A stretch of 40,179 bases of DNA from Daejeonella sp. (lineage in GTDB: Bacteria > Bacteroidota > Bacteroidia > Sphingobacteriales > Sphingobacteriaceae). The notes beneath the pieces were generated by a model, which was not told where the DNA came from, ran no database searches, and saw nothing but the letters and a program-made list of their open reading frames with translations. The stretch spans positions 1 to 40,179 of the forward strand of contig NZ_JAUXXZ010000044.1 in assembly GCF_030684675.1 (NCBI RefSeq). Direction: 5' to 3'. The position numbers and the translations under genes were made by a program. Numbering within the stretch: position 1 is the first letter of the stretch; the number at the start of each line of letters is the position of its first letter. This document shows, one piece after another, positions 38,259 to 40,179 of the stretch.

Positions 38259-38850
38259 TCTGTGTTCTTCTTAAACAAACTTAATAAAATAAAATAAAAG
38301 AAAGCAAATCTTTATAATAATTTTATAAAGTAGGCTTAAGGGCCTTTAATGCATAATAAAGCAATATTAATTTTGCTTTGTTGTGTATTTGTAGAATAAA
38401 CAAGAGGTTTTTTGCGCCAATATAGCTTCAGCAATTTTTACTTGCTGCAGGTATTTAGGTTTGCTTACGATCTAAAATCTTATCGGGATTAAAGGACCGG
38501 CTAATGTAATTTCTAAATAAATGCCCTGCTCTTTGTTTGAATTCCGGGCCTTAAATTACCGTTAATCCATTTGTTAAAGAGTCAGGGCAATGCCTTAAAT
38601 AAATCACTGCTGCCAAATCTGAATTTTCTATAAGCTTCTTTGGTATTTAAATATTATTTGTTTTATAAAATGCGTGTAAAGCAAATGTGTCTGAACGAAT
38701 AGAGAGTTTTGGGAGGCTTGTTTATGATTTATTGATTAATAGTACTATGTCATGCATGGTATTATAAAATTTATATATTTATACCGGGGTATTAATCGGT
38801 CAGTAAGTTTGAAACCCTTATAAATTTTAAACAAGCAGAAAATTTAAAAT
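38259..38850. other. Long intergenic region between ROK gene and secreted protein
   Basis: A 592-base AT-rich gap between divergent genes. It must carry both promoters. No open frame longer than a few dozen codons, repeat, tRNA or clear hairpin terminator was recognised, and no match to the Bacteroidota -7/-33 promoter pattern could be settled by eye. Confidence 0.4.
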
Positions 38851-39261
38851 ATGAAAAGTATAATAATCACCTTATTTATTTCCCTTGCTGGGACATTAAG
38901 TACTTTCGCGCAATGCGAAGAGAATGCAGTGCTAAGCACATCAAAAACAAATCTGGCAGATCCATCCGGCAACCCGGTGGGGGTGAAGGACGAAAAAACC
39001 GTACTCAGATTTTCTAAGACAGTTATTCTACTCAATATAGACGGTGAGGACAGGGCTGAACTGAAGATCGTTTCTCAGAACTGCAATTGGACGGTACCTT
39101 ATAAAGAAGGAAAAAGTGTCATTAATGCGAAATTGAATGAAAGCGATTATACACTTACGATTGAGGGAAAAGATGGTAAGGTTAATCTACACGTTGTAAA
39201 AAATGAGTCGGATGACAGTATTCTTACGATGATGGTGGATAAATTCGAAAAAACAAATTAA
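38851..39261 (+). CDS. Small secreted hypothetical protein
   Basis: A 136-residue protein with a signal peptide (MKSIIITLFISLAGTLSTFAQ, cleaved after FAQ). The mature part has Cys22 and Cys75, alternating strands (VLRFSKTVILLNIDGEDRAELKIVSQ; YTLTIEGKDGKVNLHVVKN), suggesting a small periplasmic or secreted beta fold, and no known motif. It is a single gene ahead of the GIY-YIG/tRNA region. Confidence 0.6.
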   Translation: MKSIIITLFISLAGTLSTFAQCEENAVLSTSKTNLADPSGNPVGVKDEKTVLRFSKTVILLNIDGEDRAELKIVSQNCNWTVPYKEGKSVINAKLNESDYTLTIEGKDGKVNLHVVKNESDDSILTMMVDKFEKTN

Positions 39262-39302
39262 GATCTGCTGGTTGATTATTTAATAAGGGTTCGCTGTGCC
39301 TT

Positions 39303-39436
39303 TATGGCTCCTGGTTGGTGGCAAGATTAGCTTAATTATAAAAAGTGCTAAAAAGGGTCTTCAACAGTAGCGAGGAGCAGTCCCGATATCTACCGGGAGA
39401 AAGCCGTCCGCCCAGGGCGGATATGAATCGTGGGAT
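39303..39436 (-). repeat. tRNA-Met-derived hairpin repeat, copy A
   Basis: Reading from 39366, the + strand gives AGTAGCGAGGAGCAG (the 3' acceptor and T-stem edge of the tRNA at 39985), a hairpin TCCCGATA-tc-TACCGGGA (39381-39398), GAAAGCC, a hairpin TCCGCCC-a-GGGCGGA (39407-39421), then TATGAATC (anticodon loop). The flank 39303-39365 resembles the flank of copy B. It cannot fold as a normal tRNA. It lies directly downstream of the GIY-YIG gene. Confidence 0.7.
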
Positions 39437-39437
39437 T

Positions 39438-39695
39438 TTAATTGTCTTTCCGCAACTTAATCATATCCCAAATCTCAGCTCGTCCTTTTGCACCCTTTAA
39501 GTTTTTTTCTCTTTTCATCGCTTCAGCTTTACTTGTGTATTCTTCAGTGTAAATCAAGACCCATGGCCTGAACTGTATAGTCCATCCTTTGGAAGCAAAT
39601 ATATTATGTGATTTCAATCTGTTCTCGAGGTCAGAGGTAAATCCTATATAGATTTTATTATACGATGGAGAATGCAGAACATAAACAGTGAACAT
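39438..39695 (-). CDS. GIY-YIG nuclease (UPF0213/URI type)
   Basis: An 85-residue single-domain nuclease. The GIY motif appears as YVL (Tyr5), YIG at 16-18, catalytic Arg26 in DLENRLKSH with His30, and the metal-binding Glu63 in MKREKNLKG. All core residues of the YhbQ/URI branch are present and the length is normal for it. The family includes nucleases of unclear role and small mobile nuclease genes that are often multicopy in Bacteroidota. Its setting is unusual: it is flanked by two tRNA-Met-derived hairpin repeats (39303-39436 and 39755-39910) and sits close to an intact tRNA-Met gene. A role in spreading or rearranging these repeats is an inference. Confidence 0.88.
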   Translation of the reverse strand: MFTVYVLHSPSYNKIYIGFTSDLENRLKSHNIFASKGWTIQFRPWVLIYTEEYTSKAEAMKREKNLKGAKGRAEIWDMIKLRKDN

Positions 39696-39754
39696 AAATT
39701 AAATCTAACACTGCAAACTGTAATATAATTATAGTAGAATACTGTAATATTAAC

Positions 39755-39910
39755 TTTGGCGCATGGTTGGCGCACAAGATTGATAGAAATTAAGAAAGGC
39801 CCTAAAAGTGCCTTTCTACGTAGCGGGGAGCAGTCCCGATAGTTATCGGGAGAACTGCCTTCCGCCCCGGGCGGATATGAATCCTGCGCTCTAACCATTT
39901 GAGTTGTCCT
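39755..39910 (-). repeat. tRNA-Met-derived hairpin repeat, copy B
   Basis: GTAGCGGGGAGCAG (39820-39833) matches the tRNA 3' half, then TCCCGATA-gt-TATCGGGA (39834-39851), GAACTGCC (the tRNA T-loop block), TCCGCCC-c-GGGCGGA (39861-39875), and TATGAATCCTGCGCTCTAAC with ccat (39876-39899), identical to the tRNA anticodon and D-arm region. The far end has decayed (ttgagttgtcc). Upstream it has an AGAAAGGC/GCCTTTCT hairpin (39793-39817) where the real tRNA has its terminator, and a flank resembling that of copy A. Confidence 0.75.
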
Positions 39911-39949
39911 GTATATATAATTTAAATAATAAGTTTTGTAGATCAGTAG

Positions 39950-39982
39950 AAACAAAAAAAGCCACCCGAAGGTGGCTTTAAA
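39950..39982 (-). terminator. Terminator of tRNA-Met
   Basis: On the minus strand GCCACC-ttcg-GGTGGC followed by seven T residues, starting just after the tRNA 3' end. A textbook rho-independent terminator with a stable tetraloop. Confidence 0.88.
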
Positions 39983-39984
39983 AG

Positions 39985-40058
39985 TAGCGGGGAGCAGGAT
40001 CGAACTGCCGACCTCAGGGTTATGAATCCTGCGCTCTAACCATCTGAGCTACCCCGCC
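39985..40058 (-). tRNA. tRNA-Met (anticodon CAT)
   Basis: The minus strand folds as a complete cloverleaf: acceptor GGCGGGG/CCCCGCT, D-arm GCTC..GAGC, anticodon stem CAGGA/CCCTG (one A-C mismatch) with loop TTCATAA, variable AGGTC, and T-arm GGCAG-TTCGATC-CTGCT, with discriminator A. CCA is not encoded. The anticodon CAT allows elongator Met or, if lysidine-modified, Ile; the fold resembles elongator Met. It is followed by a strong terminator and preceded by repeat DNA. Confidence 0.88.
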
Positions 40059-40179
40059 ATACTATTTTATTTTACATTAAGTATCGAACTACCGTCCGCC
40101 CCGGGCGGATATGAATCCTGCTCCGCCTTCGGGCGGATACCCCGCCATACTATTTTATTTTACATTAAGTATCGAACTA
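40050..40179. repeat. 42-bp direct repeat, 88-bp period, at the window end
   Basis: The 42 bases at 40050-40091 (the tRNA's 5' end plus 33 bases of upstream DNA) recur exactly at 40138-40179, where the window ends. The 46 bases between them are the core of tRNA-like element C. The end of the window in an exact repeat copy suggests an assembly break in a longer tandem array. Confidence 0.85.
40079..40147 (-). pseudogene. tRNA-Met-like element C with arms replaced by hairpins
   Basis: Aligned to the neighbouring tRNA: the T-arm block ATCGAACTACC is kept; the variable arm and the 3' side of the anticodon stem are replaced by TCCGCCC-c-GGGCGGA (40095-40109); the anticodon block TATGAATCCTGC is kept (40110-40121); the D-arm is replaced by TCCGCC-ttcg-GGCGGA (40122-40137); and the 5' acceptor block TACCCCGCC is kept. 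It lacks the 3' acceptor strand, so it cannot be a normal tRNA. Confidence 0.75.

Follow-up and report, generated by a model that had tools for sequence, protein, structure and literature searches.

SegB is a free-standing GIY-YIG homing endonuclease of T-even phages whose gene lies beside tRNA genes; for phage T6, amplification of a tRNA-Tyr/segB segment has been proposed, with recombination of the 5′ tRNA region with the 3′ segB region as the likely route (PMC13096335). The locus described here resembles SegB in that a GIY-YIG gene lies beside tRNA genes of many isotypes, tandem segmental units occur, and the tRNA 5′ region and the nuclease-gene 3′ region have sequence in common. Unlike the phage-borne SegB, the present family is chromosomal and found in Bacteroidota and a few neighbouring groups, and the protein of 85 aa is nearest to UPF0213 and SLX1. 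Its loci also differ from the SegB arrangement in that hairpins occupy fixed positions of the tRNA, an intact tRNA is accompanied by broken pieces, and the clades are isotype-specific. Searches of open-licence PMC papers returned no account of GIY-YIG elements linked to tRNA genes in cells, phage SegB being the closest, and nothing on the isotype clades and hairpin-marked tRNA pieces of this chromosomal family.

Other known systems share single features with the locus. UPF0213 proteins (1zg2 and 1ywl) and SLX1, which acts on branched DNA with a partner, have the same GIY-YIG domain and are the closest solved relatives by profile; we know of no tRNA linkage for either. REP palindromes and RAYT transposases are similar in that palindromes both adjoin a nuclease gene and are scattered over the genome, but RAYT transposases are Y1 HUH enzymes, whereas the present enzyme is of the GIY-YIG type and its pieces are tRNA-derived and mostly local. 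Tyrosine-integrase elements likewise occupy tRNA genes and keep one intact tRNA; unlike them, the window locus has no integrase domain, and its pieces break near the anticodon and carry hairpins. Engineered cleave-and-rescue drives combine a nuclease against an essential gene with a working copy of that gene. A comparable combination may be present here, but it would be natural, and its working copy is not visibly recoded.

The window, that is, the whole 40,179-nt stretch of Daejeonella sp. DNA that was analyzed, carries the locus near its end (Table 1). An earlier note on this DNA had described two copies, A and B, on either side of a complete GIY-YIG gene next to an intact tRNA-Met. This layout is present as described, and both copies hold tRNA-Met parts, as the note had claimed, to the extents given in Table 1. 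Read on the tRNA strand, copy B consists of tRNA 11–38, the palindrome TCCGCCCGGGGCGGA, GGCAGTTC, the palindrome TCCCGATAACTATCGGGA, tRNA 62–75 and a terminator-like hairpin; its two palindromic hairpins lie at 39834–39851 (T-loop region) and 39861–39875 (3′ of the anticodon). Copy A follows the same plan, starting just past the ORF, with hairpins at 39381–39398 (T-loop region) and 39407–39421 (just 3′ of the anticodon), and its layout resembles that of 38 named loci in the alignment described below. The 75 bases of the intact tRNA-Met are identical at 13 loci in 12 other genomes of the genus, and this gene may be the element's own working copy.

Table 1. Features of the tRNA-Met locus, in window positions
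Feature	Position	Strand	Basis
Tail of copy A, decayed terminator, resembling tail of copy B	39310..39366	-	Aligns with B as a direct repeat over 80 nt at 70% identity
Copy A, right-hand tRNA-Met piece immediately following the GIY-YIG ORF	39367..39434	-	Sequence; tRNA 62-75 at 93%
GIY-YIG endonuclease gene, 85 aa, single domain	39438..39695	-	PF01541 E=5.4e-17; no second Pfam domain
Sequence like an integrase-gene leader (CTTGTGCGCCAACCATGCGCC), possible relic	39757..39778	-	By eye
Terminator-like hairpin of copy B	39793..39819	-	Sequence, by eye; similar hairpin after tRNA piece in L148
Copy B, tRNA-Met piece	39820..39903	-	tRNA 11-38 at 96% (BLAST E 2.6e-10), 62-75 exact; palindromes
Terminator-like hairpin of intact tRNA-Met	39955..39983	-	Sequence, by eye
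Intact tRNA-Met (CAT), proposed working copy	39984..40058	-	ARAGORN; Rfam RF00005 61.9 bits
Copy C, left-hand unit, final complete 88-nt array unit	40059..40146	-	Same unit at C32:12340-12836
3′ tail of next array unit, cut by contig end	40147..40179	-	42-nt exact repeat

Pfam analysis of the ORFs of at least 60 aa at 38259–40179 gave no integrase domain, the leader-like sequence being the only trace of one, and no Y1 HUH transposase beside the palindromes: the gene is GIY-YIG and the other ORFs had no Pfam match. By eye, sequences like CTTGTGCGCCAACCATGCGCC also stand ahead of an integrase gene (PF00589) in locus L147 and after the copies in L148. A group I intron in the tRNA gene was searched for with Rfam gathering scores, which gave only the tRNA in the window, and at seven linked loci only tRNAs and one DUF805b match. 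The latter (L045:1273-1304) is barely over threshold and lies downstream of the nuclease unit.

On the other side of the intact tRNA-Met, copy C has hairpins at 40122–40137 (in place of the D-arm) and 40095–40109 (3′ of the anticodon), and an exact 42-nt repeat occurs at 40050–40091 and 40138–40179. The array on contig C32 comprises 5.6 copies, five complete units and one cut. C32 and the window contig (C75) are probably two sides of one tRNA-Met locus, since the gene beside the C32 array precedes tRNA-Met by 95–277 nt in 15 further genomes of the genus, namely those in which that gene and tRNA-Met could be read in one locus. If the contigs join in this way, at least seven units would stand ahead of the intact tRNA.

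In 26 aligned sequences, R26, H30, E63 and K67 are invariant and Y5, Y16 and G18 are at least 90% conserved; the catalytic residues are presumably among these. When the profile of the 26 relatives was searched against PDB, only UPF0213 and SLX1 chains were retrieved at E ≤ 0.01 (seven sequences), with E values of 6.3e-15 for 1zg2 and 5.4e-13 for 1ywl. Because these are the nearest solved relatives, recognition of DNA structure, including hairpins, is a serious alternative; SLX1 is deposited as structure-specific. The protein shares with SegB the GIY-YIG domain (PF01541) and the position of its gene at the presumed target, the tRNA genes. The SegB/I-TevI branch has a separate DNA-binding domain. 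A single Pfam domain and a PDB profile limited to UPF0213 and SLX1 do not place the present protein in that branch, SegB itself lying outside the alignment. The nuclease ORF is under purifying selection, with a median dN/dS of 0.22 and values below 0.5 in all 62 comparable pairs, which are not independent. Carriage by phages was rejected, as no close relative was found in viral contigs; phage records gave matches of 31–39% in 11 cases, 10 of them Rhizobium phages. Carriage by plasmids was rejected as well, with no plasmid match at E ≤ 1e-8.

To place the gene among its relatives, 60 genomes, including its own, were searched with the window protein, and matches were obtained in 40. A total of 117 GIY-YIG places were scored (9 in its own genome, Pfam matches included, and 108 from relatives), and a tree was built from 106 short proteins after 11 had been dropped (3 long, 6 with internal stops and 2 short). 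The tree contains two clades. A tRNA or tmRNA gene lies within 500 nt on the same strand in 46 of 57 clade II rows vs. none of 49 clade I rows (Fisher p = 7e-20, rows not being independent), and the co-occurrence with tRNA genes that the earlier note had suggested looking for in related genomes is thus borne out for clade II. In the clade I row L003, a tRNA-Leu lies at 351 nt on the opposite strand. Clade II is present in 34 of the 60 genomes; its nearest tRNA is upstream in 34 rows (median 52.5 nt), overlapping in six and downstream in six. Five further clade II rows carry tRNA pieces, and neither a linked tRNA nor tRNA pieces were found in the remaining six (L085, L061, L058, L066, L069 and L036). 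Judged by these genome comparisons, the window pattern is one case of a larger pattern that recurs with many different tRNAs in related bacteria.

The clade II labels comprise Met, Val, Ala, Leu, Asp, Asn, Arg, Pro, Ser, Phe, Thr and tmRNA. The isotype label changes 18 times on the tree, compared with 32–39 times in 200 shuffles and a minimum of 16 for 17 labels, so that a given nuclease subclade is mostly found at a single tRNA isotype. A bias of the tree from tRNA-coded C-termini was excluded, since proteins trimmed to 72 aa gave the same signal (17 changes vs. 31–39 in shuffles). Two GIY-YIG genes, L006 (C7:90346) and L052, follow same-strand tmRNA genes at distances of 123 and 112 nt; they group in a single clade with two rows in which no linked tmRNA was seen.

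Pieces of the neighbouring tRNA are a frequent feature of the linked loci, across many isotypes and more than one bacterial family. By a strict test, a partial copy of the same tRNA was present at 31 of 47 GIY-linked tRNA loci vs. 2 of 25 loci without the gene, the latter being what was left of 30 loci among the best-scoring tRNAs of seven genomes, not random and several of them orthologous, after five with a GIY-YIG gene within 700 nt had been set aside. The same test gave no partial copy at 16 of the 47 linked loci. Both control positives, L271 and L272, are tRNA-Lys(ctt) genes with no GIY-YIG gene within 700 nt, and L271 has two partial tRNA copies, at -86 and -172. A second count covered 47 linked rows, two of which fall in one locus: 20 had a piece on the left, 24 on the right and nine on both sides. 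A hairpin of at least five pairs could be parsed between two tRNA blocks on the left in 17 cases and on the right in 12.

Inspection of part of the linked loci revealed a plan of one or more optional left units, the intact tRNA with its terminator, the ORF and a right unit. The left unit lies between the promoter and the intact tRNA and is composed of a tRNA 5′ part, a hairpin, a T-arm piece and a spacer. The right unit is composed of a tRNA piece up to the anticodon region, a hairpin, the tRNA 3′ part and a terminator, and its tRNA part starts inside the end of the ORF or just past it; at many inspected loci, the ORF 3′ end overlaps tRNA 5′ sequence. As exceptions, Arg, Ser, Leu and Thr loci have the intact tRNA on the downstream side of the ORF. 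Left and right units have the same junction in Asp (L045, 38|51), Asn (L132, 25|36) and Met (38|49). The Met and Asp junction, one base 3′ of the anticodon, falls at what we take to be the canonical tRNA intron position. Junctions vary between isotypes, and in the Leu(caa) locus L133 the hairpin falls in the D-loop on the left side and in the T-loop on the right.

The pattern was also observed in named genomes. Bacteria and archaea were scanned with four Met-type protein queries, and the best 80 of 141 confirmed loci were used, three of which appear to come from genomes already in the first set. These best 80 belong to Bacteroidota, with a few Balneolaceae and Cloacimonadota. A tRNA-Met was found within 500 nt on the same strand in 54 of them (53 upstream and one downstream) and another tRNA in five; the other 21 had none, three of these having less than 300 nt of upstream sequence. 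Among the 57 of the best 80 with an upstream same-strand tRNA, 49 had a tRNA piece at the ORF end, and a stem of at least five pairs between two tRNA blocks was parsed in 35. A left piece was present in 20 of the 57 and pieces on both sides in 14, six of the 57 having less than 100 nt before the tRNA. The insert replaces about tRNA positions 37–48, some ten bases 3′ of the anticodon, in most parsed cases.

An anchor of CATA plus the following bases was matched in 43 of these best 80 of 141 named loci, and 41 of the 43 have a TCCG- or TTCG-type insert, some imperfect as palindromes. Covariation was analyzed in 40 copies, 38 from named loci and two from the window; the 37 loci without the anchor were left out, as were five anchored ones (L173 and L230, mis-anchored; L180, L183 and L212, duplicates). 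In this set, 97.6% of the insert-stem cells were paired, 17 cells carried double changes (mainly CG to TA), and the covariation score was 0.26; for each of these three measures, none of 500 shuffles was as high. Slid-stem controls paired at 32–58%. The other two of the five measures did not beat the shuffles, namely the number of pairs showing a double change (3, equalled or exceeded in 57 of 500 shuffles) and that of pair types (4, in 499 of 500). Tandem tRNA genes decaying at random were rejected as the chief source of the pieces because the position of the Met palindrome is common to several families and its stem covaries.

The palindrome TCCGCCC-(1 to 7 bases)-GGGCGGA occurs three times in the window vs. 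none in 100 shuffles, and at 20 sites in the whole genome vs. none for the reversed control pattern, so the window palindromes are not due to chance. Twelve of the 20 genomic sites lie away from tRNA-Met, and tRNA pieces also occur without an adjacent gene; both observations speak against a strict pairing of repeat and nuclease.

Clean and occupied versions of the tRNA-Met locus, the filled and empty sites that the note had proposed to look for, both exist within the genus. In a survey of 20 genomes, tRNA-Met was found in 18, with a clean locus in 10 and an occupied or scarred one in eight. The 10 clean genomes showed no further piece beyond chance matches of 10–11 bases, and the upstream gene was also read in nine of them. 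The nuclease is at tRNA-Met in the window's own genome and in G019, where the match contains TAG. Hairpin-bearing tRNA-Met pieces without an adjacent GIY-YIG gene were present in G002, G003, G007, G010 (two) and G017, and G008 has a piece 1.2 kb downstream with neither hairpin nor nuclease. G003 has a left unit ahead of the intact tRNA-Met, with an integrase gene after it (PF00589, L147), and a nuclease with tRNA-Met pieces on another contig, beside a RadC gene (PF04002, L158). In G007, tRNA-Met pieces on another contig lie beside a RadC-like ORF (L160, by eye).

Across the family, 12 orthologous loci were fetched, 11 of them with a readable tRNA-Met. The nuclease is present at seven of the 11, and the other four have hairpin pieces with no adjacent nuclease. 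Tandem nuclease units occur at three loci, one with three units and two with a second, of which one is partial. Left hairpin units were found at 10 of the 11 loci, a set enriched for such units because the query itself contained them. Three Niabella copies were considered as a possible jump, but this was rejected: their flanks are near-identical, perhaps through an assembly duplicate, and therefore uninformative on jumping, and no jump with differing flanks was caught among the loci compared. Clade linkage, pieces of the same tRNA, and clean and occupied sites together give strong support to the part of the earlier note that proposed a tRNA-associated nuclease unit.

The explanation that we favour, tentatively and with a probability of roughly 0.45, is that the window harbors a chromosomal member of a family of selfish elements of the homing type, which occupy tRNA genes and keep or carry a working tRNA. 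The nuclease would cut near the anticodon of a tRNA gene that is still unoccupied, and an occupied allele would serve as the repair template, so that the nuclease gene is copied in with its flanking tRNA pieces. The native tRNA gene would be split or duplicated in the process, one copy staying or being supplied intact, which would make the invasion survivable. The hairpins would mark the former cut site and the ends of the element, and shared repeats could then allow the locus to expand and contract, as the window array and the tandem nuclease units in Mucilaginibacter may illustrate. The main difficulty for such homing is that the working tRNA is identical to the naive one: a sequence difference protecting it was sought, and there is none in the genus. 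Cutting guided by tRNA sequence only would be suicidal, since the intact tRNA beside the nuclease is the same as that of nuclease-free genomes. A like question is raised by the SegB authors for their phage (PMC13096335). A further difficulty is that left units are in the minority (20 of 47 among relatives and 20 of 57 among the best 80 of 141 named loci), so insertion from hairpin to hairpin would not be established as the general case.

A more specific form of the proposal is a natural cleave-and-rescue element, in which the nuclease destroys an essential tRNA gene, insertion takes place between hairpin scars next to the anticodon, the element brings an intact copy of that tRNA with it, and clades are specialised by isotype across the phylum. 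We regard this as possible but doubtful. Host and element would be mutually dependent if the element carried the intact tRNA.

Nuclease breaks might instead serve copy number rather than spread, driving expansion and contraction of tRNA segments through shared repeats as proposed for the tRNA-Tyr/segB segment of T6 (PMC13096335). Repeats that the tRNA gene has in common with the nuclease gene's 3′ end exist here too, given the overlap of the ORF end with tRNA 5′ sequence at many loci, and so do tandem units, both of tRNA pieces (the array) and of the nuclease (3 of 11 family loci, one partial). Yet amplification alone explains neither the covarying hairpins nor the clean sites, and functional tRNA dosage would not rise because the amplified units are hairpin-broken tRNAs; we consider this account unlikely. 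The hairpins would find a direct role if the single-domain enzyme recognised the palindromes as element ends and moved hairpin-bounded units, with tRNA genes as targets. Enzymes of the IS200/IS605 and RAYT groups recognise DNA hairpins at element ends. The palindromes hold conserved tRNA positions and covary, on inspection their sequence is alike on the left and right within several loci and differs between genomes, similar ones are dispersed in the genome, and structure-specific SLX1 is among the nearest solved relatives. Nevertheless, an unsystematic look met no hairpin-bounded copy at a new non-tRNA place, and host repair would still be needed, since GIY-YIG enzymes, to our knowledge, form no covalent DNA intermediate. 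Transposition of this kind seems to us rather improbable.

Two further accounts do without an active role of the nuclease at the tRNA gene or place it at the RNA level. Tyrosine-integrase islands entering repeatedly at the tRNA-Met 3′ end could have left displaced 3′ fragments, the GIY-YIG gene being a passenger. The integrase gene after tRNA-Met in G003 indicates that an integrase-bearing element also uses this tRNA in the genus, similar leader-like sequence follows copies A and B and those of G010, and RadC or a RadC-like ORF adjoins the displaced pieces of G003 and G007. Such scars, however, do not predict 5′ tRNA pieces, fixed internal hairpins or isotype-specific nuclease clades, and the stretch 38259–40179 has no integrase domain, which leaves this origin very unlikely. 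Scarcely more can be said for the idea that hairpin-bearing pieces, particularly the ones that separate promoter and tRNA, give transcripts serving as decoys or as signals for processing, and that the nuclease acts on RNA or tRNA biology, which we rate as the most improbable of all. Left units do lie inside the predicted pre-tRNA transcript (promoter by eye), and compensatory stem conservation fits RNA as well as DNA, but the patchy occurrence of the pieces, their decay and their tandem repetition resemble selfish DNA.

If homing with a retained or carried working tRNA is correct, a large family of cellular selfish elements invading essential tRNA genes has gone unnoticed, although clade II occurs in 34 of the 60 genomes. 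The family would then be nature's equivalent of designed rescue-type gene drives and a chromosomal parallel to phage SegB. It would also give UPF0213-like GIY-YIG genes a role and explain the hairpin-broken tRNA pieces and arrays beside bacterial tRNA genes. The proposal directly predicts where the enzyme should cut, that the intact tRNA should be needed, and that empty alleles should be converted.

Elsewhere in the window's own genome, TCCGCCC-N-GGGCGGA also lies, by eye, inside two apparent families of dispersed repeats (L012, L021 and L022; L014, L020, L023 and L026). At L024:1501-1649, the same palindrome stands 59 nt from the end of a tRNA-Pro(tgg) gene, where the genome Pfam search shows no GIY-YIG gene; it is possibly a relic of another element. 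The clade I GIY-YIG genes of this genome (L001, L002, L003 and L005) have repeats all around them, of the GTCATT or GTCATC type at L001–L003 and of the CCGTCATTTCGAACACGG type at L005, and a REP-like pairing of clade I nuclease and surrounding repeats is possible.
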